A DNA stretch of 64,000 bases from assembly GCA_903891415.1 (NCBI GenBank), contig CAITEH010000005.1:1-64000 (forward strand), in the 5' to 3' direction. The position numbers and the translations under genes were made by a program. Each line of letters opens with the position of its first letter. Position 1 is the stretch's first letter. Below the pieces are notes generated by a model. The model was not told where the DNA came from. It saw only the letters and a program-made list of their open reading frames with translations, and did no database searches. The DNA comes from Candidatus Firestoneibacteriota bacterium (GTDB taxonomy: Bacteria > Oederibacteriota > D2-FULL-39-29). Below are positions 7,020 through 22,898 of the stretch, in pieces.

Positions 7020-7685
7020 TTAAATCTCTCCGCCCAGGTGATGACGGACATCTTTACCTTCCACAAGAAAGATCACGTCTTCTGCAATATTTGTTGAGTG
7101 ATCCCCTATGCGTTCCAAGTGCCTTGAGATCAGAATAAGTTCAAGCGCCCTGCTGATATTTCCGGAGTCTCCGGACATATAGGTAAGCAATTCCCTGAAG
7201 ATCTGATCTTTTAGTCCATCCACCTCATCATCCGTTGCCATAACTTTTTTTGCAAGCAGGACATCTTTTTTTACAAAAGCATCCAGAGAGTCCTTTACCA
7301 TTTTCTTTACAATTTCGGACATTCTGGGAGTATCAATAAGCGGCTTTAAAGGAGGCTGCTTAAGCAATTTCACGCTGGAATCAGCAATATTTACTGCCTG
7401 GTCACCCATACGTTCAAGCTCCGCATTTATTTTCATCGCAGAGGTAATAAATCTCAGGTCCTGAGCCGCCGGCTGATGCAGGGCAATGAGTTTCAGGCAT
7501 TTGTCATCAATCTCCACCTGTATTTTATTAACCTCATCTTCGTGGCTGTAAACCTCTTTTATCAACTCTTCCTTTCTGTCAACAAGAGATTTTATCGCAT
7601 AATTTATCATGGATTCCACAAGCGAGGCCATATAAAGCAACCGTTCTTTTAACTCTCCCAGTTCTTCGTCAAAATGACGATTCAT
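7020..7685 (-). CDS. phoU: Phosphate transport regulator PhoU (operon 1)
   Basis: 221-aa two-repeat, three-helix-bundle protein that links Pst transporters to PhoR signalling. Both repeats show the metal-binding E/D-x3-D type motifs (NAELERMGDQAVNIAD and SRHLERIGDHSTNIAEDVIF). I start it at 7685, where AAAGGAG precedes the ATG by five bases and the product matches the length of the second PhoU (221 aa); the ORF track adds 17 residues. Last gene of the pstSCABB-phoU operon. The two PhoU copies are clearly related across their full length. Confidence 0.95.
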   Translation of the reverse strand: MNRHFDEELGELKERLLYMASLVESMINYAIKSLVDRKEELIKEVYSHEDEVNKIQVEIDDKCLKLIALHQPAAQDLRFITSAMKINAELERMGDQAVNIADSSVKLLKQPPLKPLIDTPRMSEIVKKMVKDSLDAFVKKDVLLAKKVMATDDEVDGLKDQIFRELLTYMSGDSGNISRALELILISRHLERIGDHSTNIAEDVIFLVEGKDVRHHLGGEI

Positions 7686-7777
7686 ACCGTCTCCTTTGTA
7701 TAAATATTCAATTGTTTCTATATATATTAGCACCAAATTTTCACAAAATAAAGAGTTAAATACTAGATCTAAATTTT

Positions 7778-8542
7778 TTAACCAAACCTTCCGGTTATGT
7801 AATCCTCGGTCTTCTTTTCTACAGGGGAGGTAAATATCTTCGAGGTTTTACCAAACTCCACCAGTTCTCCAAGCAGCATAAAACCCGTATCATCCGATAC
7901 TCTCGCCGCCTGCTGCATATTATGGGTGACAATTATTATTGTGTATTTTTTTTTCAATTCCACCATTAGTTCCTCTATTTTTAGCGTAGCCATGGGATCA
8001 AGTGTAGAACAGGGTTCATCTAGAAGTATTATATCAGGCCTGACCGCCACCAGCCGCGCGATACAAAGCCTCTGTTTTTGTTCCAGGGAAAGATTAAGAG
8101 CTGATTTTTTTAACCTGTCTTTTAATTCATCCCAAAGTAAAACTGACTTCAAACTTTCTTCAATTATCCCATCCAGCGCGCTTTTACCCGGAAATGAATG
8201 AATTCTTAAGCCGAAGGCAACATTCTCATAAACCGATAACGGAAACGGGTTGGGCCTTTGAAAAACCATACCTATGCGCCTGCGCAGGATATCAATATCA
8301 GTACCACCGTGATAAATATCTTCACTGCCGTTATAAACCCTGCCTGTTATCTTTACCCCTTCTATCGTATCATTCATGCGGTTAAACACTCTCAAAAGAG
8401 TGGACTTTCCACAGCCGGAAGGGCCTATCAGTGATGTAATTTGATTTGGGGCTATTTCAATATCAACATCTTTTAAAGCACGGAAACTGCCGTAGAAAAG
8501 ATTTAGTTTTTCTGTTCTAATAACACCATTATGGTCAGTCAT
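7778..8542 (-). CDS. pstB: Phosphate ABC transporter ATPase PstB, degenerate signature motif
   Basis: Cytoplasmic ATPase for phosphate import, 254 aa. Walker [10 protein letters not shown] (40-48), Q-loop GMVFQ (Q95), Walker B IILLDEP (E176) and switch VTHN (H207) are all canonical. The ABC signature is not: LSGGQQQ is replaced by LSLEQKQ at 151-157, so this subunit cannot complete the partner's ATP site in the usual way. The codons (CTT TCC CTG GAA CAA) exclude a one-base sequencing error. The upstream neighbour is a second PstB with the opposite set of defects, which points to an obligate heterodimer. Starts one base after that gene ends; phoU follows after a 92-base gap. Confidence 0.93.
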
Positions 8543-9292
8543 TTATCCAAACCTTCCTGTGATATAAGCTTCAGTTCGCTTATCTTCCGGCGAAAGAAAT
8601 AGTTTTTCAGTTATGGCAACCTCTATCAGTTCCCCCATAAGGAAAAAAGCTGTCCTATCACTCACCCTGGACGCCTGTTTAACGTTATTCGTTACCAGAA
8701 CAAGAGTATACTTCTTTTTTAATTCTATCATCGTCTCTTCTACTTTTGCGGTGGAAATAGGGTCAAGGCCGGAGCAGGGCTCGTCAAACAGGATTATATC
8801 CGGCTCTACGGCAAGAGTTCTTGCTAGGCAAAGACGTTGCTGCTGCCCCCCGGAAAGCTTAAGCGCGGACTCCTTTAACCTGTCCTTAACTTCGTCCCAG
8901 AGAGAGGCAGCTCTAAGGCATCTTTCAGCAAGCTCTTCAAGTTCTTTTTTACTTTTGATACCGTGTCTTTTGGGACCATAAATAACATTTTCCAGGACAG
9001 TCATGGGAAGCGAAAGCGGGAGCGCAAATACCATTCCCATCCTTTTCCTTAACATTTCGGGATTTCCGTGAGCTATATTCTTTCCGTCTATCAGTATCTC
9101 CCCTTGCTGCCTGTAATTCGGGTTCAATTCATTAAGCCTGTTTAAGGAACGCAAAAATGTCGTTTTTCCGCTGTTGGAAGGACCTATAATTCCCAGTATT
9201 TCATTTTCTTTTACGGCCAAACTCAAATTCTTTACGCTCTGAACCTTTCCAAACCAGCATTTCAAGTTATGGACCGTTATTTTATCTACCAT
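8543..9292 (-). CDS. pstB: Phosphate ABC transporter ATPase PstB paralogue, lacking Q-loop Gln and switch His
   Basis: 249-aa PstB-family ATPase. Walker A GPSNSGKTT (37-45), signature LSGGQQQ (146-152) and Walker B IILFDEP are intact. However the Q-loop Gln is Ala (GMVFALPLSLP, A90) and the H-switch is Asn (VTNN, N202). The AAT codon is unambiguous. Such a subunit should bind ATP but hydrolyse it poorly at its own site, while supplying a good signature to the other subunit. Overlaps pstA by seven bases and abuts the other pstB. Tandem pstB genes are known in Bacillus and lactic acid bacteria; this complementary degeneration is what is unusual. Confidence 0.92.
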   Translation of the reverse strand: MVDKITVHNLKCWFGKVQSVKNLSLAVKENEILGIIGPSNSGKTTFLRSLNRLNELNPNYRQQGEILIDGKNIAHGNPEMLRKRMGMVFALPLSLPMTVLENVIYGPKRHGIKSKKELEELAERCLRAASLWDEVKDRLKESALKLSGGQQQRLCLARTLAVEPDIILFDEPCSGLDPISTAKVEETMIELKKKYTLVLVTNNVKQASRVSDRTAFFLMGELIEVAITEKLFLSPEDKRTEAYITGRFG

Positions 9293-10131
9293 TTTTTATT
9301 CTTCCTGAAATATGTTCTTATCACGATCGCTGTAAGGTTCATTGTTAAGACAAGCATTAGAAGGACCAGAGCTGTACCATAGGTCAGCTTGGACGGCATA
9401 TTTGGTATCTGAGTGGATATTATGAAAAGATGGTAGGGTAAAACCATTATCTGGTCCAAAAGAGAACCAGGCAGCCTGGGGATATAGAACGCTGCCGCGG
9501 TGAATAATATCGGGGCGGTCTCACCTGCTATTCTTGCGATGGAAAGTATGGTTCCGGTCATTATACCCGGAAGAGCGTGCGGTAATACTACATACCTGAT
9601 AGTCTGCCATTTAGAAACACCAAGAGACAGGCTGACCTCTCTGAATGACAGGGGAACGCTGCTTAGGGCTTCTTTAGATGTTGTTATTATTACCGGAAGT
9701 TCCATAATAGCCAGGGTAAGCGCGCCTGAAAGCAGACAAACGCCGAATTTCAGGAAGATAACAAAAAGTCCCAGGCCAAATAATCCGTAAACTACCGAAG
9801 GAACTCCGGCAAGGTTTACTATAGAAAGCTTAATAATACGCGTAAGCAGATTATCTTGCGCGTATTCATTTAAATATATTGCCGCCATGACACCGACAGG
9901 AAGTGCAATAATAACAGACAGCAGCACCAGGTAGATAGTACCTAAAATAGCAGGGAAAATCCCCCCGCTTCTCATACCGTTGCTCGGCATAGTTGTCAGA
10001 AATTGCCAATTAATGGCGGGAATTCCTTCTTTGATAATTACTATAATAATTATCAGTACCGGCAGCACAACTACAAGGGTAGTGGCAAGCAGAACCGCGA
10101 ACGCTATTTTCTGAGACTTTTTCGCGTTCAT
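9286..10131 (-). CDS. pstA: Phosphate ABC transporter permease PstA (operon 1)
   Basis: 281-aa inner-membrane permease with six hydrophobic helices. The binding-protein-dependent permease coupling segment appears as LSFREVSLSLGVSKWQTIRYVVLPHALPGIMTG, the EAA loop that docks on PstB. IPAINWQFLTTMPSNGMRSGGIFPAILGT near the N-terminus is typical of PstA rather than PstC. Overlaps pstB by seven bases and follows pstC after three bases. Confidence 0.95.
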   Translation of the reverse strand: MNAKKSQKIAFAVLLATTLVVVLPVLIIIIVIIKEGIPAINWQFLTTMPSNGMRSGGIFPAILGTIYLVLLSVIIALPVGVMAAIYLNEYAQDNLLTRIIKLSIVNLAGVPSVVYGLFGLGLFVIFLKFGVCLLSGALTLAIMELPVIITTSKEALSSVPLSFREVSLSLGVSKWQTIRYVVLPHALPGIMTGTILSIARIAGETAPILFTAAAFYIPRLPGSLLDQIMVLPYHLFIISTQIPNMPSKLTYGTALVLLMLVLTMNLTAIVIRTYFRKNKKW

Positions 10132-10134
10132 TTA

Positions 10135-11010
10135 TTATTCCTTATTTTTATGAAGATACGTATCTGCTATAAAATTGATAATGAAAGTAATGACAAAAAG
10201 TACGGCTCCTATAGCAAAGAGAGACCTGTAATGAGAGCTGCCTCTTACAGTCTCTCCCATCTCCGCGGCAATGGTTGCCGTCATAGTCCTGACAGACTCC
10301 AGGAAGCCACTCGGTATAACAGCGGCATTACCGGTAACCATCATCACCGCCATGGTTTCCCCGATAACACGGCCAATACCCAGCATGACCGAAGCAATTA
10401 TCCCGGGAGTGGCGGCAGGCAGTATTATGCGGTACATTATCTGCCATTTTGTAGCTCCGAGCGCAAGCGCGCCTTCTTTATAATTCCAGGGAACGGCATT
10501 GATAGCGTCTTCAGAAATGGAAACAATAGTAGGCATTGCCATAAATGCAAGCATTATGCAACCCGAGAGTGCCGTCAAACCTGTAGGAATTCCAAAAACA
10601 GTTTTTATGACGGGAACCAGCGTAACCATGCCGACAAAACCTACAACAACGCTCGGAATTGCAGCCAGCATTTCCACTCCGGCTTTTAACAGATCCTTTA
10701 GGCCTTTTGGCGCAACTTCTGATATGTAAAGAGCTGCCATGATGCCCAAAGGCACGGCTAAAATAGTTGCACCTACAACTATAACCAGAGAACCCGCTAT
10801 AAGGGGAAGAATTCCAAATCTTGGAGAGTCTGAGGCCGGATACCAAAAATGGCCGAAGATAAAATCTTTGATGTTATATTCGCCAAAGAAAGAACCTCCT
10901 TCCTTAACCAGGAAAAAGAAGATAAGAATGACAAATATTATCGCGGCAATACCGGAAATAAATATCATTTTTTCTATTATGTAATCTCTTAACTTCTTTA
11001 ACCTGCGCAT
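10135..11010 (-). CDS. pstC: Phosphate ABC transporter permease PstC (operon 1)
   Basis: 291-aa partner permease of PstA. It shows the PstC features FGHFWYPASDSPRFGILPLIAGSL, IPLGIMAALYISEVAPKGLKDLLK and the EAA loop WNYKEGALALGATKWQIMYRIILPAATPG, with about six membrane helices. Starts 15 bases after pstS. Together with PstA it should form the membrane channel for this system. Confidence 0.95.
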   Translation of the reverse strand: MRRLKKLRDYIIEKMIFISGIAAIIFVILIFFFLVKEGGSFFGEYNIKDFIFGHFWYPASDSPRFGILPLIAGSLVIVVGATILAVPLGIMAALYISEVAPKGLKDLLKAGVEMLAAIPSVVVGFVGMVTLVPVIKTVFGIPTGLTALSGCIMLAFMAMPTIVSISEDAINAVPWNYKEGALALGATKWQIMYRIILPAATPGIIASVMLGIGRVIGETMAVMMVTGNAAVIPSGFLESVRTMTATIAAEMGETVRGSSHYRSLFAIGAVLFVITFIINFIADTYLHKNKE

Positions 11011-11025
11011 GGCATATCCTGACCT

Positions 11026-11901
11026 CTAATTTAGCGGAACAAAGTCAAGCGACTTTACCACCGCCTGGCCTTCGGAAGATAAAACAAAATCAAGGAACAT
11101 TTTCACCGTCAAGTTCGTACTGTCGGTTACATAAATAAATAAAGGCCTGGAAATTGGATATTTCCCGCTTTTCACATTATCTATTGTCGGCAGGATATAT
11201 TCGGATTTTTTTTCTTTTGCTACGGCAATAACAGTGTGTTTTTTAGAAATATAGCCCATACCAAAATAGCCAATGGCATTTGGATTCTGCGCTACTTCAT
11301 CGGAGATGGCCTGCGAGGAAGGCATCAGAAGTGCTTTCGGAGAGTATTCTTCCGGCCCTTTCGGTTTACCAAGTTTCAAGACGTGTTCTTTGAAGAACAC
11401 ATGTGTTCCCGAGTTGCTCTCTCTGGAAAGCAGAACTATCTTTGCATCCTTCCCGCCAAAATCCTTCCAGTTGGTCTTAGTCCCCATAAAGATATCTCTT
11501 AGTTCAGGTATGGAAAGCTTGCTGATACCGCAAGAGGGATTGACCACTACAGCCAGGCCGTCAAGAGCCACTTTATGTTCCGAAAATTCCATGTTTCCTT
11601 CTTTTGCTTTGGCCACTTCTTTCGCTTCCACACTTCTTGAGGACATTGCAATATCGCAGGTCTTGTTTAAGAGCGCTGCAAATCCCGTCCCCGAGCCGCC
11701 GCCGGTAACACCGACATTAATGTTCGGATGAAGTTTAGTGAACTTTTCTGCCCAGGACTGCCCGAGATTAACCATGGTATCCGAACCTTTTATCTGGAGC
11801 GAAACTCCCGGTTTCCCTTCATTACCACCACCCTTCGAACACGCGGTAAGAGCAAAAACAAGAGCTATTCCGCAAAAACCAAGTACGATCGCTTTTTTCA
11901 T
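11026..11901 (-). CDS. pstS: Phosphate-binding lipoprotein PstS (operon 1)
   Basis: 291-aa periplasmic-side phosphate receptor. A lipobox LTAC at residues 18-21 predicts acylation at Cys21, so it is membrane-anchored, unlike the second PstS in this window. Phosphate-binding segments are recognisable: GSDTMVNLGQSWAEKF, TGGGSGTGFAALLN, SRESNSGTHVFFKEHV and NAIGYFGMGYI. The ATG has GGAGGAA upstream. First gene of the operon, preceded by a four-unit Pho box. Confidence 0.95.
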   Translation of the reverse strand: MKKAIVLGFCGIALVFALTACSKGGGNEGKPGVSLQIKGSDTMVNLGQSWAEKFTKLHPNINVGVTGGGSGTGFAALLNKTCDIAMSSRSVEAKEVAKAKEGNMEFSEHKVALDGLAVVVNPSCGISKLSIPELRDIFMGTKTNWKDFGGKDAKIVLLSRESNSGTHVFFKEHVLKLGKPKGPEEYSPKALLMPSSQAISDEVAQNPNAIGYFGMGYISKKHTVIAVAKEKKSEYILPTIDNVKSGKYPISRPLFIYVTDSTNLTVKMFLDFVLSSEGQAVVKSLDFVPLN

Positions 11902-13268: not shown

Positions 13269-14807
13269 TTAAGAAATAGAAAGCCGGCAGCAAAAGGCCT
13301 CTTCGAAAAGGGCCATTTTTCTTTGCGCACCCCAGATGTTTATTCCTATATCGCCGCCTTTATAAGGTTTTATTTTAAAATAAATATTCCTTCCGGCTTG
13401 CTTTATTTTTATGTCTTTAACCAGGGAATTGCGGGAGCGATCCAATCCGTCGGCTATCCTGAGTATGCCGGATAGTTTTGAAACCATAACCTGGTCTTCA
13501 GAGTTCAAACTGCTGAATCCTTCGTGCTTAAGTTTTGGATGGCTCTTCCTGTGATACCTTGCAATATTGGCGATTATTTCTTTTTCGGTGTCGGTAAAAC
13601 CGGCAAGTTCAAAATTTTTAATAAGATAGTAGGAGTGCCAGTGATGCTGTTCATGCGAGATAAAAAACCCCGTATCATGCAACAGGGAGGCAGTCCTGAG
13701 AAAGTCTCTTTCGGTATTTGAGAAACCGCAGTTATTTTTCAATTTGTCAAATATTACTAAAGCTAATTTCTCCACCTGTTTAACATGCTTAAGGTCTACA
13801 TTTAAAGTCGAGGTCATGGTTTTAATTGAATTTTCACGGAGGATCTTAATATTGTCCGGTTTTCTGCTTGCGCCAAACCTTGAAATTGTGTCAAAAATCA
13901 ACCCTTCTTTAAGAGAACTGTCGCAGAAGCGTATTTTTTCAATTTTTAGTTCGTCAAGAACCGTAGCGAGGACCGCGGCGCCTCCCGCAATAATATCAGA
14001 ACGCCTGGGGTCAATACCCGGAATACCCGATATTTTTTCGGGAAGGCTCAAACTCAGAAGTTCTTCCAACAGATCCTCAAATTCTTTACGGTCAAACACT
14101 ACTTCTCCAATGGGGGTTTTTCTTGCTTCGCTTCTGCGCATATTTATCATGGAGCTTACTGCTGATATCGTACCGGAAGTTCCTATCGCTATTTCGTATT
14201 TTTCATTTTTTAGTTTCCTTGTTACGGGCACCAGCACTCCTCTGACATATTCCGCGCAATCTTTCAGGCCTTTACTTTTCATAATACCGCCGGGGAAATA
14301 TTTATCCGTCATTCTAATGCAGCCCAGCTTCAGAGAACTGGCAAATACTATGTTTCCCTTCTCAGCAAGGATGAACTCAGAGCTCCCTCCTCCTATGTCA
14401 AGAAGCAGTATTTTTTTATCGGACACGGGCAGAGCAGCCGCCACTCCCAAATATATGAGCCTGGCTTCCTCAAATCCGGAAACTACTTCCACTTTTATTC
14501 CGGCCTCATTCTTGGCCCTTTCAATAAAAACATCTTTATTTAAAGCTTCCCGTACCGCGCTTGTGGCGACGGCCCTTACAAACGCGTTATAAGAAGCGGC
14601 GATCTCTCCGAATCTGCGCAGGGTTTCAATCCCTCTATCCATGGCCCTATCGGTTATAAATTTCATATCTGTTGCTCCGGTCCCTAACCTGACAACTTCT
14701 CTTTCCCTGTCAAGTATCACATTATTAACCTTGCCGGAATCAGTTCTGACCACAACCAGCCTGATTGAATTGGTCCCAATATCTATGGCCGCAAAGTTTT
14801 TTTTCAT
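13269..14807 (-). CDS. ppx: Exopolyphosphatase / guanosine pentaphosphatase (Ppx/GppA)
   Basis: 512-aa cytosolic enzyme that strips phosphate from polyphosphate or pppGpp. N-terminal ASKHA fold: AAIDIGTNSIRLVVV, catalytic-region SGFEEARLIYLGV, and phosphate loop LLLDIGGGSSEFIL, followed by the second lobe. The C-terminal ~190 aa form an HD-like helical domain (ASLLHDTGFFISHEQHHWHSYYLI). Last gene of the second phosphate operon; its ATG overlaps the tmk-like stop by four bases. Context with PhoU, SixA and Pst supports a polyphosphate role over (p)ppGpp, but sequence alone does not decide. Confidence 0.92.
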   Translation of the reverse strand: MKKNFAAIDIGTNSIRLVVVRTDSGKVNNVILDREREVVRLGTGATDMKFITDRAMDRGIETLRRFGEIAASYNAFVRAVATSAVREALNKDVFIERAKNEAGIKVEVVSGFEEARLIYLGVAAALPVSDKKILLLDIGGGSSEFILAEKGNIVFASSLKLGCIRMTDKYFPGGIMKSKGLKDCAEYVRGVLVPVTRKLKNEKYEIAIGTSGTISAVSSMINMRRSEARKTPIGEVVFDRKEFEDLLEELLSLSLPEKISGIPGIDPRRSDIIAGGAAVLATVLDELKIEKIRFCDSSLKEGLIFDTISRFGASRKPDNIKILRENSIKTMTSTLNVDLKHVKQVEKLALVIFDKLKNNCGFSNTERDFLRTASLLHDTGFFISHEQHHWHSYYLIKNFELAGFTDTEKEIIANIARYHRKSHPKLKHEGFSSLNSEDQVMVSKLSGILRIADGLDRSRNSLVKDIKIKQAGRNIYFKIKPYKGGDIGINIWGAQRKMALFEEAFCCRLSIS

Positions 14808-15556
14808 TTCTCTCCGGGCTGCGCCAATATTTTTTCAAGCTGGATCTTAAGTTCCGCGTTCACTTCTTCAAAACTTTTTGACGCATCTATGGAAGTAAAG
14901 CCATATTCTTTCGCCATAACATCAAATTCAGCCAGCATTCTCTTCTGGTACTCAATAAAACTGTCATAAAAGTCTTCACCCAGTTTCAAGTCCATGCCTG
15001 ATTCCCAGTAGTCAAGCCCCTCTCCGCCTTTTTCCCAGTAGTGTTCATTAAGATGAGCAGCATTAATTACCCGGGGCACCAGGTCTTTTATTTTTATTCT
15101 CAGGTAGAAAACCGCATCAGGTACCAGGGCAAAGCTGAAGGCCTTTCGTGTCCATTCTCTTCCGGCACCCCGTACCAGGGCTCTCACAAACGCAGTATAG
15201 ATATACCTGTCAGCAAGGACTATAAAACCTGATTTCAAAGCAGGAATTATTTGATGTTCAAGGCGGTCTGCAAAATCAGCAAGATAAAGCATGCTGAAAG
15301 TATAAACGTTAAGATTATGCCCTGCTTTTGCTTTCTTTATTTCGCTTCCCATAAGCGGTGACCTGGCCCAGCCGGTAGTCATAACACCATACCCTTTCAC
15401 CTCAAGCCACTTGGAAATATTTTCCATCTGAGTGGAACGGCCGACTCCGTCGGTACCTTCAAGAACTATAAGTTTACCTTTCAAGTCGTTCAGGTCAACA
15501 TAAGGCAGGCTTGCTCCGTAGCATTTTCCGCAGTTCAGAGGTTTTTCATTTGACAT
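14804..15556 (-). CDS. Thymidylate-kinase-like P-loop protein with Arg in place of the Walker A Lys
   Basis: About 250 aa, P-loop nucleoside-monophosphate-kinase fold. It matches its upstream neighbour along most of its length (DFADRLEHQIIPALKSG, LADRYIYTAFVRALVRGAGREW, ESGMDLKLGEDFYDSF). The P-loop reads EGTDGVGRSTQ, so the invariant Lys that contacts the phosphates is Arg, and the lid region differs from the neighbour. An extra N-terminal stretch with CGKC precedes the core. Start chosen at 15556 (GAGGAG seven bases upstream), overlapping the previous gene by 11 bases; the ORF track adds 23 residues. Activity as a dTMP kinase is doubtful; a polyphosphate-linked or regulatory role is inference. 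Confidence 0.8.
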   Translation of the reverse strand: MSNEKPLNCGKCYGASLPYVDLNDLKGKLIVLEGTDGVGRSTQMENISKWLEVKGYGVMTTGWARSPLMGSEIKKAKAGHNLNVYTFSMLYLADFADRLEHQIIPALKSGFIVLADRYIYTAFVRALVRGAGREWTRKAFSFALVPDAVFYLRIKIKDLVPRVINAAHLNEHYWEKGGEGLDYWESGMDLKLGEDFYDSFIEYQKRMLAEFDVMAKEYGFTSIDASKSFEEVNAELKIQLEKILAQPGEK

Positions 15557-16259
15557 ATACATTCTCCTCTTTAGAAAGGAAGGCGCTTTGTTTATAATCC
15601 TTAAGCATATTTTTTGCCAGTTCACGCACCGCGGCTTGCTGTTTCAGTATAGATTGAGAAGCATCAATGGTGGTCAAACCGTATTCCGTCGTAAGGCTCG
15701 CGTATTCATCCAGTATCCTTGTTTGAAATATTCTGAAACTCTCTTTAGGGTCTTCGCTTAAACCCAAATCCATGCCGGCCTCGTGAAATTTTAATGTTGG
15801 ACGCCCGGTAAGTATTCTTTTTAAAGACACTTCTATTGGAACTTTAAAATAAAGCGCAAGATCCGGTTTTATCGCAAAGCCATAAAGGTCTCTTATCCAG
15901 TCACGGCCCACGCCTCTGACCGCATCACGGGCAAAGGCGGTATAAATATATCTGTCCGCTAAAATTATCATTCCGGCTTTTAAAGGCGGCATTATCAACT
16001 GGGCAAATCTATCGGCAAAATCTGTGGCATGGAGGATACTGAAAGTTGCAGGTGTAAGCAGGTTCTTTTTTTTACCTCTCTTGATGAGTTCGTTCACCAG
16101 AGCCGAAGAATTCCATTCCGTGAAAAAAACTCTGTAGTTCAAGGAACCAAGCCATTTTTGAAGAAGCTGCAGCTGGGTCGATTTACCCGAGCCGTCAATT
16201 CCTTCAACTATAATAAGTTTCCCGGGGTATTTATGGGGTGCTTCAAATTCTCTTGGCAT
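15546..16259 (-). CDS. Thymidylate-kinase-like P-loop kinase (canonical P-loop)
   Basis: 237 aa from the ATG at 16259, which has GAGGAGC five bases upstream; the ORF track runs 60 residues further into sixA and is a frame extension. Walker A VEGIDGSGKSTQ is intact, followed by DFADRFAQLIMPPLKAG, the LADRYIYTAFARDAVRGVGRDW motif and the lid-like RPTLKFHEAGMDLGLS. This subfamily differs from housekeeping Tmk and, as I recall it, is often found near polyphosphate genes. Here it is followed by a degenerate paralogue and ppx. The substrate is uncertain. Confidence 0.85.
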   Translation of the reverse strand: MPREFEAPHKYPGKLIIVEGIDGSGKSTQLQLLQKWLGSLNYRVFFTEWNSSALVNELIKRGKKKNLLTPATFSILHATDFADRFAQLIMPPLKAGMIILADRYIYTAFARDAVRGVGRDWIRDLYGFAIKPDLALYFKVPIEVSLKRILTGRPTLKFHEAGMDLGLSEDPKESFRIFQTRILDEYASLTTEYGLTTIDASQSILKQQAAVRELAKNMLKDYKQSAFLSKEENVYVK

Positions 16260-16269
16260 ATTTTGCTCC

Positions 16270-16764
16270 TCAGGCAAGCATCCGCAGGTGTTTCGGCGAC
16301 AGATTCCAAACCAAAAGACCCGCTTTTGAAAGCGCAGGGTCCGAGACATCAACGCGGCAGAGCCCGCCTTTCTTGATCTCCACAATTTGCTTATTTGTTC
16401 CACAAAGAACTCCGGCCAATTTTGACAAGAGCGGTTCATGCCCGATCAAAAGAATTCTGGGTTTATCCGCATTGTCTTCCAAAAAATCCAATACGTCATC
16501 GCTCTTCTTTGACGGCAAGAGCAGATCCGACACAAGAACTCTATTATCAAGGCCCATTTCTTTGGCTACAATTTCACTTGTTTGAACAGCTCTTTTTAAG
16601 GGGCTCGTTACCACAAGATCAAAGTGATCTACTATTTCTGCCAGCCCCCTGGCACCCTTGTTCATTTTAAATATTCCTTCTTCGGTAAGCTCTCGCTCCT
16701 CATCGATAGTACCCGCAGAATCTGCCGGTTCAGCTATGCCATGCCGCAGCAAATATATTTCCAT
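16270..16764 (-). CDS. sixA: Phosphohistidine phosphatase SixA family
   Basis: 164-aa histidine phosphatase. The catalytic YLLRHGIAEP puts the nucleophile at His8. VVTSPLKRAVQTSEIVA and LLIGHEPLLSKLAG carry the other phosphate-pocket Arg and His. It is compact, as SixA proteins are. It starts one base inside the phoU stop, so translation is probably coupled. In a phosphate operon it might act on a phosphotransfer protein or small phosphoester; unproven. Confidence 0.9.
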   Translation of the reverse strand: MEIYLLRHGIAEPADSAGTIDEERELTEEGIFKMNKGARGLAEIVDHFDLVVTSPLKRAVQTSEIVAKEMGLDNRVLVSDLLLPSKKSDDVLDFLEDNADKPRILLIGHEPLLSKLAGVLCGTNKQIVEIKKGGLCRVDVSDPALSKAGLLVWNLSPKHLRMLA

Positions 16765-17429
16765 TAGCGCACATCCTTTTGATAATGCCTTACATCCTGC
16801 CCTTCTACCATAAAGATAACATCTTCGGCTATGTTTGTGGCATGGTCGCCAATTCTTTCAAGATGCCTGGAAATTAAAATAAGTTCTAACGCCACAGGTA
16901 TATGTTTTGTTTCCGAAAGCATATAGGTCAAAAGCTCCCTGAAGATCTGATCTTTAAGCCCATCGACCTTATTATCTCTGACCAGAACTGATCTGGCAAG
17001 CTCAGCATCCGCTCTCACAAAGGCGTCGAGGCAGTCTTTAACCATTGTTTTTGAGATATCGGCCATCAACGGAATATCTATGAGCCGTTTTAATTGAGAG
17101 AACTTCAGGAGTTCCTTTGAAGCATCGGCGATATTTATAGCCTGATCCCCCATTCTTTCAAGTTCAGAATTTATTTTCATCGCTGACGTAATAAAGCGAA
17201 GATCCGTACCCGCCGGCTGATTTAAAGCGATAAGCTTAAGACAGCGGTCATCTATTTCGATCTGAAGTTTATTTACTTCGTTTTCTTTTCCATACACCTC
17301 TTTCCCGACACTTTCTTCCCTTTCCACAAGGCTCTTTATTGAAAGATGGATCATACTTTCAACCAAGCCGCCCATATAAAGCAATAGTTCTTTTAGTTCT
17401 GCCAGCTCAGAATCAAATACTCTAGTCAT
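16764..17429 (-). CDS. phoU: Phosphate transport regulator PhoU (operon 2)
   Basis: 221 aa, full length, with the two conserved motifs NSELERMGDQAINIAD and SRHLERIGDHATNIAEDVIF. Clearly homologous to the PhoU of operon 1, with identical length, so the pair likely arose by duplication of whole pst cassettes. Overlaps the upstream ArsC-like gene by eight bases and the sixA start by one. Confidence 0.95.
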   Translation of the reverse strand: MTRVFDSELAELKELLLYMGGLVESMIHLSIKSLVEREESVGKEVYGKENEVNKLQIEIDDRCLKLIALNQPAGTDLRFITSAMKINSELERMGDQAINIADASKELLKFSQLKRLIDIPLMADISKTMVKDCLDAFVRADAELARSVLVRDNKVDGLKDQIFRELLTYMLSETKHIPVALELILISRHLERIGDHATNIAEDVIFMVEGQDVRHYQKDVR

Positions 17430-17835
17430 TATTACCTCCGAATTTCTCTTTCGTAAATTCGACTACGCTGCGCTCTATCTTATCCCTTACCTTTCTGAAA
17501 AAAGCCGGAGGGGTCCCGGTCGGATCAGGAATATTCCAGTTAATAAATTCTTTAGCCGGAGCTACAGGACAAATATCTCCGCAGCCCATTCCGATAACAT
17601 AATCAAAAACATCAATATTGAGTTCTTTAATACTTTTCGAACTTGCGTTGGAAAGATCTATCATTTTTTCTTTCATGAAGCTTATGGCATCCGGATTAAC
17701 CTTCCCCGAGGGTTTGGACCCGGCGCTATAGCTTTCATAAAACTCATGACCGTGAACTTTCCCAAAAGCTTCGGCCATCTGGCTCCTGCAGCTGTTATGT
17801 ATGCATAGGAACAATACTTTTGGCAATTTTTTCAT
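17422..17835 (-). CDS. arsC: ArsC-type arsenate reductase / low-Mr protein tyrosine phosphatase family (intact)
   Basis: 137 aa. The P-loop CIHNSCRSQMAEAF gives C11-x5-R17 with Ser, the full LMW-PTPase signature. MGCGDICP supplies further cysteines (C85, C89) as in Cys-relay arsenate reductases, and NIPDPTG carries the general-acid Asp. It is therefore a plausible arsenate reductase. Arsenate enters through Pst, so placement between pstB and phoU makes sense. Protein phosphatase activity is the alternative. A degenerate paralogue lies just upstream. Confidence 0.88.
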   Translation of the reverse strand: MKKLPKVLFLCIHNSCRSQMAEAFGKVHGHEFYESYSAGSKPSGKVNPDAISFMKEKMIDLSNASSKSIKELNIDVFDYVIGMGCGDICPVAPAKEFINWNIPDPTGTPPAFFRKVRDKIERSVVEFTKEKFGGNND

Positions 17836-17883
17836 CCAAACCTCCTCCAGGATATATATTTCAGCTTAGATATTTTCACTTCC

Positions 17884-18309
17884 TCAAATCTCTGATTTAG
17901 AACTTATTTCTTCTGCTATTTTCCTTAATAATCCCGCCACTTTTGCGCCTATAAGATCCCTTGCAAGGCGAAAGAAAACAATTTCCGGGCTCTCAGGATA
18001 AGGGAGCGTCCATTTAAAATATTGTTTTGCCGTTAAAAATGGAGCGGAATCTTTACCGCCCAGATCTACAATAATATCAAATTCTCTGAAAGGTAATTCT
18101 TCTAAGCCTTTCGGCCTATATCCGGAAATATCCATGCCCTTTTCCTTCATGACCAGGATCGCAAGAGGGTTAACCGAACCGGCAGGTTTAAATCCTGCGC
18201 TAAAAAATGAGACGCCCGGAACACCTCTCGCCAGCATCTCAGCAAGTCCTTCAGCCATCTGACTCACGCAGGAATTATCCATGCAAAGAAACAATATTCT
18301 CATGATCAT
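17884..18309 (-). CDS. ArsC-like protein with dismantled active site
   Basis: 141 aa, same fold and length as the next gene ([34 protein letters not shown]). The catalytic Arg of C-x5-R is Val15, the general-acid Asp of the DP motif is Tyr (TLPYPES) and the resolving cysteines are gone ([10 protein letters not shown]). The nucleophile-like C9 and C14 remain. Such a protein may bind an oxyanion or partner but should not catalyse the usual reaction. Starts on the pstB stop (ATGA overlap). Drift after duplication is possible, yet the frame is fully open and tightly coupled, which suggests selection. Confidence 0.85.
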
Positions 18310-19067
18310 CCAAAACGGCCGGAAACATAATCCTCAGTCCTTTTATCCCTGGGATTGGTAAAAATATCTTCGGTATTTCCAAATTCTATCAACTCTCCCA
18401 GCAGAAAAAAGGCAGCCTTGCTGGAGATCCTGGCGGCTTGCTGCATATTATGAGTAACAACCAATATAGTATAATCCTTCTTAAGTTCCACTATCAGGTC
18501 TTCTATTTTTCTGGTGGAAATAGGATCAAGCGACGCGCAAGGTTCGTCAAAAAGAATTACCTCCGGTTCCACAACCAGGCACCTTGCGATACATAGCCGC
18601 TGCTGCTGTCCTCCGGAAAGCCGTAAAGCGCTGTCGCTCAGGCGGTCTTTAACTTCATCCCAGAGCGCCGCCTTGCGCAGGGCAGTCTCAGTTTTTTCAT
18701 AGAGGATTTTTTGATCTGTAATCCCGTTGATCTGCAAGCCGTAACACATATTCTCAAATATACTTTTAGGGAAAGGATTTGGCTTTTGAAATACCATGCC
18801 GACCTTTCTGCGCAGTTCCACTACATCCACATCCGGGTCAAATATATTCTTCCCGTCAAGAAGTACTTTTCCTTTGAGTGTCGTATGAGCAACCAGGTCA
18901 TTCATCCGGTTAATGAGCCTAATAAAAGTCGATTTACCGCAGCCGGAAGGCCCGATCATCGCAGTAACCATATTCTTATAAATATTCATATTAACATCAA
19001 TAAGGGCATGTTTTAATCCGTAAAAAAAATTAACGCCTTCTACTTTGATCCTTATCTCATCAGACAT
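18306..19067 (-). CDS. pstB: Phosphate ABC transporter ATPase PstB (operon 2, canonical)
   Basis: 253 aa with all ABC motifs normal: Walker [11 protein letters not shown]-loop [13 protein letters not shown], signature LSGGQQQ, Walker B VILFDEP and switch VTHN. It serves as an internal control for the altered pair in operon 1. Ends in GRFG like the other two. Overlaps pstA by eight bases and the ArsC-like gene by four. Confidence 0.96.
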
Positions 19068-19908
19068 ACTTTCTCCTCTGTTTTTCTCTTAAATAAATTG
19101 CTAGAGCTGAAATACAAAGTACCAAAAGTAAAAGAATAAGGGCGCAGCCAAAAGCTATCATTTTTTGCTGGTCAGGATGCGTTCCTTCGGTCATAAGAGC
19201 GTAAATATGATAGGGTAAAGCCATACATTCGGACATCGGTGACACCGGATATCTGTTGGTATAAAATGTGGCTGCCGTAAAAAGTATCGGGGCCGTCTCG
19301 CCTGCCGCCCTGCCAATGCCCAGAATAACGCCGGTCAAAATGCCGGGTAGAGCTGTAGGAACCACTATATTTTTAATTGTCTGCCATTGTGTCGCACCGA
19401 GCGCATAGGAAGCTTCTCTTAACGAACGGGGTACCGCAACCAGAGCTTCGTAGGAAGCGGAAATAATGTTAGGCAGTATTAAAATACTTAGAGTCAGGCT
19501 TCCCGCGAGAATAGATACGCCAAAACCAAAGAATTTCACAAAAACCGCCAGTCCAAAAAGGCCAAATACTACAGAGGGGACACCTGCAAGATTATTTATG
19601 CTCATTCTTAGAATATTCACAATAATATTTTTTGGACTGTACTCTACAAGATATATTGCGGTTATCAACCCTAGAGGAAGTGAAAATAAGATAGAGCCCA
19701 AAGTCAGATACAGTGTACCCACTATTGCCGGCGCCACACCTCCTGCGGTCATGGCTTTTCTCGGTATATCAGTTAAGAACTGCCACGAAAGCACCTTGAC
19801 TCCATTGACAGTGATAAAATACAGTATGGACCCGAGAAAAAGTATTGTAATTGCCAGAGCCGCTATCAAAAGGAAAAAGCCTATTTTTTGAGTTATTTCT
19901 GCTTTCAT
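19060..19908 (-). CDS. pstA: Phosphate ABC transporter permease PstA (operon 2)
   Basis: 282-aa permease. [27 protein letters not shown] and the EAA loop [29 protein letters not shown] identify PstA; about six membrane helices. Start overlaps the pstC stop by four bases. Closely similar to the PstA of operon 1 in layout. Confidence 0.95.
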
Positions 19909-20792
19909 AGATCCAATCCAAGTTTTAATCTATATCTTCGGCTAATAATTTCTGCAACTAGGTTTAGCACCAGAGTAATTACAAAAAGCACAAAACCTAT
20001 GGCAAACAAGGCATGATAATGCTGGCCTCCTACCACTGCTTCGCCCATCTCTGCGGCAATTGTGGAAGTCATAGGACGCACCGGCGAAAAAATAGAATTC
20101 GGTATGGCTGCGGCTCCGCCGGTAACCATAAGGACTGTCATCGTTTCTCCGACAACGCGGCTTATCCCGAGCATTAAGGCCGTGGATATGCCTGAACCGG
20201 CCGCCGGAATGACCACACCCCAGAGGGTCTGCCATCTATTGGCCCCGAGAGCAAAAGAGGCCTCCCTGAAAGCTTTGGGTACAACAGACAGAGCATCTTC
20301 CGCAATACTGCATACTGTAGGAATGGCCATGATACCAAGTACAACCGCGCCTGTGAAGGCGCATTGGCCTGTAGGAATTTTTAGTAATTGCTGGATAAAA
20401 GGAGATATTATTACCATGCCAAAAAATCCAAAAACTATTGAGGGTACCGCCCCTAGCACCTCTACTATATTCTTAAGGTACATTTTTTGTTTATCTCCCG
20501 CAAGTTCGTGGATATATAGAGCGCTTCCTATTCCCAGAGGAATGGCAACCAGCATGGCGCCTATGGTAACAACAAAAGAACCGACAAGCATGGAGAGTAT
20601 GCCAAATTCCGGATTGGCTTCGTTTGTCGGATACCAGTTCCTACTGAATAAAAATTTAAAAAGTCCGGTACTTCTGAAAACAGGGATAGACTCCACGAAA
20701 AGAACCACTATTATGCCGAGTAAAAATATCAGGGAAGAAAAAGCCAGAACCGTAAAGATCCATTTATATATATTTTCTCTTGTTCTTATCAT
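19905..20792 (-). CDS. pstC: Phosphate ABC transporter permease PstC (operon 2)
   Basis: 295-aa permease with the PstC marks FSRNWYPTNEANPEFGILSMLVGSF and the EAA loop KAFREASFALGANRWQTLWGVVIPAAGSG. Separated from pstS by a 68-base gap that holds a strong hairpin, the only sizeable gap in this part of the operon. Confidence 0.95.
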   Translation of the reverse strand: MIRTRENIYKWIFTVLAFSSLIFLLGIIVVLFVESIPVFRSTGLFKFLFSRNWYPTNEANPEFGILSMLVGSFVVTIGAMLVAIPLGIGSALYIHELAGDKQKMYLKNIVEVLGAVPSIVFGFFGMVIISPFIQQLLKIPTGQCAFTGAVVLGIMAIPTVCSIAEDALSVVPKAFREASFALGANRWQTLWGVVIPAAGSGISTALMLGISRVVGETMTVLMVTGGAAAIPNSIFSPVRPMTSTIAAEMGEAVVGGQHYHALFAIGFVLFVITLVLNLVAEIISRRYRLKLGLDL

Positions 20793-20804
20793 TTTTTCAG
20801 GATA

Positions 20805-20837
20805 TTCCGCCCCGTCCTTTATTGTGACGGGGCGGAA
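20805..20837 (-). other. GC-rich intercistronic hairpin after pstS (operon 2)
   Basis: TTCCGCCCCGTC (20805-20816) pairs perfectly over 12 bp with GACGGGGCGGAA (20826-20837) around a 9-base loop. No T-run follows on the transcribed strand, so it is more likely an RNA-stabilising or partial-attenuation element that keeps PstS in excess over the permeases than a full terminator. Confidence 0.75.
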
Positions 20838-20860
20838 ACCCGTCTCCTTTGATATTTTAC

Positions 20861-21679
20861 TTACTTCTGCAGCGCTACAAAACCAGCTTCCTCAACTATC
20901 TTTTGCCCCTCATTGCTCAGGATAAAATCAATGAATTTTTTCCCTGCGCCCTGAGGTTTCCCGTTCGTATACATATAAAGCGGCCGGGAAAGCGGATACG
21001 AGTTATTAAGGACATTTTCTTTCTTGCATTCTATCCCGTTAACCGTAACTGCTTTAACTTTTTCTGTCAGATAACCGAGCCCTATGTAACCTATCCCGCC
21101 GGGAGTTGTTCCGACAGTTGTGGCTACGGCCTGATTGGAAGCTTGAAGAAGAGCATCTCCTCTCACTTTAGCGCCGTCAATGGCCAATGCGCCGAAAGCT
21201 TCATAGGTTCCGCTGGCAGTGTCTCTTGATACCACAACAATTTTTCCGGCATCCCCGCCGACTTTTGACCAGTCGGAGATATTGCCTGTATAGATATCCT
21301 TTATCTGTTTCTTGGTAAGGTTCTTTACTCCGTTGCCCGGATTAAGAATAACAGCAATGCCATCCATTGCTATCACTGAACCTTTCGGGTCAACACCTTT
21401 TGAGAGCGCTTTTTGTATTTCCGCTGCCTTTATGGACCTGGATGAGTCGCAAATATCACAGGTTGAATCCAGGAGGGAAGCAATCCCGACACCGGAACCA
21501 CCGCCCCTTACCGTAACTGAAATATCCGAATTCTTAGCCATAAAAGCTTCTGCCCCTGCCTGAGCAATGGGAAGAACCGTGGTAGAACCTTCAAGGATAA
21601 GCTTCTCTGCATAAGCACCGCCCGAAACAAGCACAAGGCCTGTCAAAGCGATTAAAGCTGTTTTTAAAATACTTTTCAT
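20861..21679 (-). CDS. pstS: Periplasmic phosphate-binding protein PstS (operon 2)
   Basis: 272 aa. Signal peptide ends GGAYA with no lipobox Cys, so it is predicted to be soluble in the periplasm, in contrast to the lipoprotein PstS of operon 1. Binding loops are evident: EGSTTVLPIAQAGAEAFM, RGGGSGVGIASLLD, SRDTASGTYEAFGAL and PGGIGYIGLGYL. The start has GGGAGG upstream. It follows the porin by ten bases. Confidence 0.95.
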   Translation of the reverse strand: MKSILKTALIALTGLVLVSGGAYAEKLILEGSTTVLPIAQAGAEAFMAKNSDISVTVRGGGSGVGIASLLDSTCDICDSSRSIKAAEIQKALSKGVDPKGSVIAMDGIAVILNPGNGVKNLTKKQIKDIYTGNISDWSKVGGDAGKIVVVSRDTASGTYEAFGALAIDGAKVRGDALLQASNQAVATTVGTTPGGIGYIGLGYLTEKVKAVTVNGIECKKENVLNNSYPLSRPLYMYTNGKPQGAGKKFIDFILSNEGQKIVEEAGFVALQK

Positions 21680-21689
21680 ATAACCTCCC

Positions 21690-22898
21690 TTAGTAGTTTA
21701 CCTGCAACATGCAGTCCATCTTTCCGTAACTGAGTGCCGTGGAAGCCATACCGTTATCTGTATAACGATAATCTATCAGAAACCTGACCGCTTTGTCGGC
21801 ATAAACATTTACTCCTATAGTGTAGTAACTCACCGGAGTATTTTTCCAAACATTCGCATTCCACTGCTCAATCCTGATAATCGGAGCTATTCCGGCAAGG
21901 CAGGGCATTAACAGGCCTAAAGGCTGCATCTCAAGTGTTATTGTTGAATCCAGGCAATCCACCAGCCCGGTAGAATCTTTGCCGCCGACAAATTCAGCGG
22001 TAAAGAATGTTGGTATCCCGGCCAGATCTTCTTCATATTTCGCGTAAAAACCGGCTGTTACCGAGTAAAGGGTCTGAGACACGACCCATTTGTTATACAT
22101 GGACAGGCCAAGTTCAACACCATTTACCGGAGCTGAAGTCAATCTAACCGAATAATCTTTCGCGTTGTCAGATTCATAGCCGTAGTTTGTCCCGTTCATA
22201 ATTGCCGCTCTCCACTGCAAAAGATTCTTGAGAGAACCCGGAAGATTTCCCCACCACTGAATTCCGAAATCATAATCGGAAGCAATCACGCTCCCCATAT
22301 ATTTAGGTGTGTCAAATAGTTTCTTTTTGGAAGAAGAATAAGGATTCTCAAAACCAAAGGGCTGGTGATACTGCCCAAATCTGAAAGTGGCCAGATCGTT
22401 GTCAGCTGCAAGGTCTATCCATATTTCCTTAAAAAGAACAAAAGGAACTACCGTGGAATTAGTAGTACCTCCGGCATTAGTACCGGTCACTTTTGTAGTG
22501 GCAGTGCCCGCTACCGTAAATGCCGGCGCCTGTATTGCAGCAAAATCCGGCTGGATCTTAAAAGTGGCCCAATCAGTAAGTTTTGCTGTTAACGCGATCC
22601 TGGCTCTTTTAATTATCCAAGGTTCCTTGCCGTCCACTATCGTCGGATCATCGGTATAGGACATCTGAGTGTATCCCGACCAGGTGATCTTCTGCGCCCA
22701 AGCCGGCACATTTTCCGCTGTTCCGATAGCGAGTTTTTTTGTTACCTCATCTCTTGTATCAGAAAGAATCTGTTGAGCTTCTCCCGGTGTTAACACGCCT
22801 TTGTCCTGTAATTTCTGCGTCAAGGTATCTATTTCTGACGCTGCAGCTATACTTGCAAACATGAAAGCCGCTATTACCGCAAATACTGTCTTTTTCAT
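21690..22898 (-). CDS. Phosphate-selective porin O/P family outer-membrane protein
   Basis: 402 aa. Signal peptide, then a short coiled-coil/periplasmic stretch (IDTLTQKLQDKGVLTPGEAQQIL), then a 16-strand-type barrel with ITWSGYTQMSYTDD, WIIKRARIALTAKLTDWATFKIQPDF and FRFGQYHQPFGFENPYS, matching the OprO/OprP porin family. Heads the operon with pstS and sits behind a Pho box, so it most likely admits phosphate under starvation. AGGAGGG precedes the ATG. Confidence 0.88.
   Translation of the reverse strand: MKKTVFAVIAAFMFASIAAASEIDTLTQKLQDKGVLTPGEAQQILSDTRDEVTKKLAIGTAENVPAWAQKITWSGYTQMSYTDDPTIVDGKEPWIIKRARIALTAKLTDWATFKIQPDFAAIQAPAFTVAGTATTKVTGTNAGGTTNSTVVPFVLFKEIWIDLAADNDLATFRFGQYHQPFGFENPYSSSKKKLFDTPKYMGSVIASDYDFGIQWWGNLPGSLKNLLQWRAAIMNGTNYGYESDNAKDYSVRLTSAPVNGVELGLSMYNKWVVSQTLYSVTAGFYAKYEEDLAGIPTFFTAEFVGGKDSTGLVDCLDSTITLEMQPLGLLMPCLAGIAPIIRIEQWNANVWKNTPVSYYTIGVNVYADKAVRFLIDYRYTDNGMASTALSYGKMDCMLQVNY

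Follow-up and report, generated by a model that had tools for sequence, protein, structure and literature searches.

PstSCAB is a phosphate importer of the ABC type. In Escherichia coli, it is powered by a homodimer of one canonical ATPase, PstB, and has two equal ATP sites. ABC ATPases form a sandwich dimer, where each site is made up of the Walker A and B motifs, Q-loop, and switch His of one subunit and the signature motif of the other (PMC7756269).

Some Firmicutes encode tandem PstBs. The PstB1 and PstB2 genes of Enterococcus faecalis are adjacent in one pst operon, possess canonical motifs, and have unequal roles (PMC12096839). PstBA and PstBB of Bacillus subtilis have been modelled as a heterodimer (PMC11466899).

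Asymmetric ATP sites are best known from exporters, e.g., TAP1/TAP2, CFTR, TM287/288, BmrCD, and Pdr5, where complementary losses leave one canonical and one degenerate site. The degenerate site of these exporters usually lacks the catalytic Glu (PMC7756269). RbsA and NupO are importers with one degenerate ATP site (PMC11466899); they are of type II, have fused nucleotide-binding domains (NBDs), and lack the Lys of the second Walker A. No report of a degenerate-site PstB or phosphate importer was found in a search of the open-access literature.

The window analyzed here is a 64,000-nucleotide stretch of contig CAITEH010000005.1 from a Candidatus Firestoneibacteriota bacterium. It contains a minus-strand operon that reads, 5' to 3', pstS-pstC-pstA-B2-B1-phoU, where B1 and B2 are two PstB paralogues. 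The genes of this pair operon, and the canonical PstB (B3) used for comparison, are as follows:

11026 to 11901, minus strand: PstS-type phosphate-binding lipoprotein (TIGR02136, 255 bits, above cut-off)
10135 to 11010, minus strand: pstC of the pair operon, with a canonical-type coupling loop, EGALALGATKWQ (TIGR02138, 288 bits, above cut-off)
9286 to 10131, minus strand: pstA of the pair operon, with an altered coupling loop, SFREVSLSLGVSKWQ (TIGR00974, 290 bits, above cut-off)
8543 to 9292, minus strand: B2, PstB paralogue and first of the two ATPase genes, with LSGGQ kept and A90 and N202
7778 to 8542, minus strand: B1, PstB paralogue, with Walker A, Q95, E176, and H207 kept and the signature LSLEQ
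7020 to 7688, minus strand: phoU, directly downstream of B1 (TIGR02135, 231 bits, above cut-off)
18306 to 19067, minus strand: B3, canonical PstB of a separate second pst operon, outside the pair

The operon logic is that of PstSCAB. PstS, PstC, PstA, and PhoU all exceed their family cut-offs, the ATPases belong to the PstB family, and the substrate is presumably phosphate as well. The difference lies in the ATPases, which are two divergent PstBs with complementary motif losses. Against the PstB equivalog TIGR00972 (NCBIfam), B1 scores 370.3 bits and exceeds the cut-off of 343.2, and B2 scores 339.9 bits, about 3 bits under it; TIGR00972 is still the best match of B2 by 80 bits. Only three PstB-type proteins are encoded in this genome, and its remaining ABC ATPases reach at most 181 bits.

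Translation of B2 (9292-8543) precedes that of B1 (8542-7778). The last 7 bases of pstA are shared with the start of B2, and the ATG of B1 directly follows the stop of B2 (TAA-ATG) in the same frame, at the junction GGATAAATGACT. This overlap and abutment suggest that pstA, B2, and B1 are translationally coupled, which would favor 1:1 assembly of the ATPases.

The second pst operon is complete, spans 16764-22898 (minus strand), and lies ~9 kb from the pair operon. It encodes a porin-like protein, PstS, PstC, PstA, canonical PstB, two ArsC-like proteins, and PhoU. The ArsC-like proteins (17422-18309, minus strand) are tandem members of the LMW-PTP/ArsC type. The copy at 17884-18309 has the motif CMDNSCVS, in which the Arg of CX5R is gone; this degenerate copy was not seen in two other genomes (G001 and G004). 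Two tandem thymidylate-kinase-like proteins are encoded at 14804-16439 (minus strand), beside ppx and sixA. The second falls below the dTMP kinase cut-off and has a Lys to Arg change in Walker A (GTDGVGRST). This is the third tandem paralogue pair of the window with a catalytic residue lost in one partner.

B1 possesses Q95, E176, and H207 (VTHN), and its signature, LSLEQ, carries G153L and G154E relative to LSGGQ. B2 has the Walker A GPSNSGKTT, an Ala in the Q-loop (VFALPLSLP, Q90A), and an Asn at the switch (VTNN, H202N). The window sequences thus bear out a first-pass annotation of this DNA, which had described LSLEQ as the loss in B1 and the Q-loop Ala and switch Asn as the losses in B2. 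That annotation did not mention that NS replaces GC in the B2 Walker A with the Lys intact, nor that the catalytic Glu of B2 is intact. It had also called the third PstB fully canonical, and the motif check of B3 (19067-18306) agrees.

A census of relatives was composed of distinct full-length sequences, namely 173 B2, 158 B1, and 51 canonical PstBs; the B1 and B2 classes are defined by motifs, and trees built without the motif columns return the same groups. All 173 B2 sequences have the Walker A Lys, both Walker B residues (Asp and Glu), and the signature Ser-Gly-Gly-Gln. The Q-loop Gln of B2 is replaced by Ala (171), Glu (1), or Pro (1), and the switch residue is Asn in all 173. B1 keeps Lys, Gln, Asp, Glu, and His, each in 158 of 158 sequences. 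Its second signature Gly is Glu in 155 and Asp in 3. The first is Leu in 137, Pro in 8, Ala in 4, and Asn in 1, and Gly is retained in 8. In B1, the constant feature is an acidic residue in place of the second signature Gly, and not the Leu. No canonical PstB (0/51) has losses at the equivalent positions; a single LSIGQ still has the second Gly. Because the losses recur in 173/173 B2 and 158/158 B1 and in 0/51 canonical PstBs, they are not due to chance.

B1 and B2 have a median identity of 50%. The pairs located number 198, of which 161 are distinct by sequence, and none is half-degenerate. Every pair combines a B2 with Gln to Ala (one Glu, one Pro) and His to Asn with a B1 in which the second signature Gly is Glu or Asp. 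The 161 distinct pairs come from Firestonebacteria, Omnitrophota, Elusimicrobiota, Margulisiibacteriota, Planctomycetota, Auribacterota, and Krumholzibacteriota. The substitutions co-occur in related genomes almost without exception, and no homologue in the census regains LSGGQ in B1 or the Gln or His in B2. A salt bridge between B2 Lys205 (97% Lys) and B1 Glu154 was considered and is not strict, as L309 and L312 have Met in B2 and keep the Glu in B1. B1 is altered further around its Walker B and D-loop in two very small genomes, reading SSLDN in L245 and DESC in L246, possibly as early decay.

By the sandwich-dimer rule, a B1-B2 dimer would have one canonical site, with ATP held by B1 and the signature from B2, and one degenerate site, with ATP held by B2 and the signature from B1. 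The census shows that the first predicted site, composed of Walker A/B, Q-loop, and switch His of B1 and LSGGQ of B2, is fully canonical and invariant. The opposite predicted site, composed of Walker A/B of B2 and LSLEQ of B1, is missing three elements of catalysis or sensing. Of the proposal that the pair forms an asymmetric heterodimer with one canonical and one fully dead site, the asymmetric heterodimer is strongly supported by the paired losses and by the lack of a restoring homologue, the case that the first-pass annotation had named as refuting. The term fully dead is too strong, as all 173 B2 sequences retain the Lys of Walker A along with the Asp and catalytic Glu of Walker B. Since the Lys and Glu are kept, nucleotide probably still binds at the degenerate site, with little turnover. 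The degenerate-site signature of Pdr5, LNVEQ, has a Glu at the position equivalent to that in LSLEQ, and ATP stays bound at this site throughout the cycle (PMC8421411).

The retained Glu sets the pair apart from the asymmetric exporters, as does the direction of transport. The pair shares with RbsA and NupO one degenerate site in an importer but is made up of separate genes, with the Walker A Lys kept. Compared by published motifs, the tandem PstBs of E. faecalis have no degenerate site. The view that phosphate importers normally use a PstB homodimer, from the first-pass annotation, is correct for E. coli, but Firmicutes (PMC12096839, PMC11466899) and the planctomycete locus L310 have tandem canonical PstBs.

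B1 and B2 might not be partners, where each would instead mix with a canonical PstB such as B3 or form homodimers. B3 is present in this genome, the adjacent canonical pstB genes of E. faecalis are not equivalent (PMC12096839), and one metagenome-assembled genome (MAG) has B2 and a canonical PstB without B1. However, both paralogues are kept in genomes without any B3, and either homodimer would have two defective sites. Moreover, 159 of the 161 distinct pairs are adjacent, and the exceptionless complementary losses point to mutual dependence. Separate partners are very unlikely, and an obligate B2-B1 heterodimer is the preferred reading.

In the family of the window genome, B2 and B1 were found in 3 of 4 other genomes with the same substitutions and 71-73% identity. 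Canonical B3 was found in two of these genomes and is intact in both. Scanning 84,980 species genomes yielded 80 loci carrying the labels Omnitrophota, Elusimicrobiota (including Endomicrobium), Firestonebacteria, Saganbacteria/Margulisiibacteriota, Auribacterota, Planctomycetota, and Krumholzibacteriota. Counted from the listed matches of whole-genome searches, the pair is present in 8 of 9 genomes of the window's order and none elsewhere in its phylum, in 139 of 384 genomes in the phylum of an Omnitrophota genome, in 21 of 74 Margulisiibacteriota, and in 2 of 80 Krumholzibacteriota. It was also counted in about 80 of 248 genomes in the phylum of an Endomicrobium genome (motifs checked in part) and in about a dozen of 246 Planctomycetota (divergent pairs included); in Elusimicrobiota and Planctomycetota, the scores of divergent B2 overlap the canonical range, and B2 was assigned by motifs. 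The Omnitrophota search had a clean gap, with B2 at 390 bits or more and canonical PstB at 368 bits or less.

Synteny from PstS to PhoU is conserved in distant genomes. Seventeen B2 had no B1 in the fetched stretch, and most of these are near a contig or stretch end. B1 is elsewhere in the genome, unlinked to B2, in G548, G597, and G518. The one MAG noted above, Omnitrophus sp. SulCav (L087/G352; L087 2095-2113), has phoU directly after B2 and a canonical PstB elsewhere, and alone among the 17 it seems to be truly without B1. No B1-B2 or PstA-B2 fusions were found; long open frames were noted in L072, L092, and L237. A contig labelled Desulfuromonadales (L024) has a Firestonebacteria-like pair whose B2 is 84% identical to that of the window, and it is probably mis-binned or mislabelled.

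B1 and B2 both fall inside the PstB tree. In a tree built without the four motif blocks, B2 forms one clade (bootstrap/SH-aLRT 100/99), as does B1 (99/94). As each is monophyletic without these blocks, a single origin for each is most likely. The canonical tandem PstBs of L310 (1239-3004) were considered as an ancestor and rejected, as both copies group with canonical PstBs and not with B1 or B2. B2 and B1 of the window both group with Elusimicrobiota relatives in one tree (support 93 and 97). This grouping, with confinement to one order of the phylum, suggests that the operon was gained as a unit by the window's lineage; differential loss is the alternative.

For an unsaturated pair of loci (L027/L028), dN/dS is 0.046 for B2 and 0.026 for B1, values indicative of strong purifying selection on both. 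One or both genes could be viewed as duplicates decaying under relaxed selection, as catalytic residues are gone and B2 scores just under the PstB equivalog cut-off. Such dN/dS values (0.03-0.05) argue against this, as do open frames in all phyla and retention in genomes of 0.4 Mb. The same specific substitutions are also fixed at B2-B2 identities down to 49%. Decay is scarcely credible, and the pair is best described as a genuine asymmetric Pst variant that is conserved and of single origin.

One membrane subunit of the pair operon, PstA, is also altered. The PstA loop beside B2 reads SFREvSlSLGa/vSkWQTIR, where canonical PstA has Ala at both changed positions. Ala to Val is found in 110 of 167 pair-operon PstAs versus 0 of 47 canonical, and Ala to Ser in 145 of 167 versus 3 of 47, in a canonical comparison set that is small and taxonomically mixed, so that both changes could be lineage effects. 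Pair-operon PstC keeps the canonical coupling loop, and the Q-loop region of B2 is remodelled (FALPLPLP). Because the PstA loop is altered, the PstC loop is not, and the B2 Q-loop region is remodelled, the simplest assignment, and a probable one, has B2 docked under PstA and B1 docked under PstC. An AlphaFold2 model of a B2-B1 read-through single chain, built with 14 paired rows, gave good domains (pLDDT 85.8) and a domain placement that is not confident (pTM 0.56).

Taken together, B2 and B1 very probably form an obligate heterodimer powering a working one-site PstS-PstC-PstA phosphate importer. ATP would be hydrolyzed at the canonical site only. The degenerate site would bind nucleotide without useful turnover and may act as a hinge or anchor when the NBDs close, as in Pdr5 or TAP. 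Phosphate would be imported, and PhoU would monitor the system as in ordinary Pst.

Eleven genomes of 0.4-0.9 Mb, from the phylum that contains Endomicrobium, have the pair as their only PstB-family matches. Neither PHO4/PiT nor Na/Pi cotransporters were detected in these eleven genomes, and named controls were positive for both families. Five of the eleven were opened, and pstA and pstC are present in 5/5 and phoU in 4/5. MAG incompleteness may hide genes in any single reduced genome but not plausibly in all eleven. The pair system is the only phosphate importer detected in these genomes; it is not claimed to be the sole phosphate source. Symbionts of this reduced-genome kind may also obtain phosphate from imported sugar phosphates.

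This sole detected importer points to ordinary phosphate import as the likely role of the pair system. The first-pass annotation had instead raised a regulated or sensory transporter, which these genomes leave unsupported. Such a transceptor would import slowly or conditionally, and its degenerate site would sense nucleotide or phosphate and signal via PhoU. In nearly all pair loci checked, B1 is followed by phoU, and many genomes, including that of the window, also encode canonical Pst or PiT, which would free the pair for another role. PhoU also follows ordinary Pst systems, however, and the pair has no added sensor domain and an invariant good site. With the reduced genomes retaining only this detectable importer, a transceptor is improbable and a working importer remains the preferred reading.

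A wider reading is that this phosphate importer is ancient, has a single hydrolytic site, uses one ATP per cycle, and was spread or inherited across several phyla of mostly uncultured bacteria; this is a serious possibility that falls somewhat short of likely. If the one-site model is true, a Pst importer can do without two competent sites. A site that keeps the Glu and has lost the Gln, His, and signature would represent a regulatory or economizing site of a new type. Whether ABC importers hydrolyze one or two ATP per substrate is an old debate. A presumed one-site and a presumed two-site Pst, with the same presumed substrate and ~9 kb apart in one genome, would permit a direct comparison of ATP per phosphate. 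Asymmetric ATP sites have been studied best in exporters; here they would have arisen in a phosphate importer and been retained across several phyla, as well as in strongly reduced genomes.
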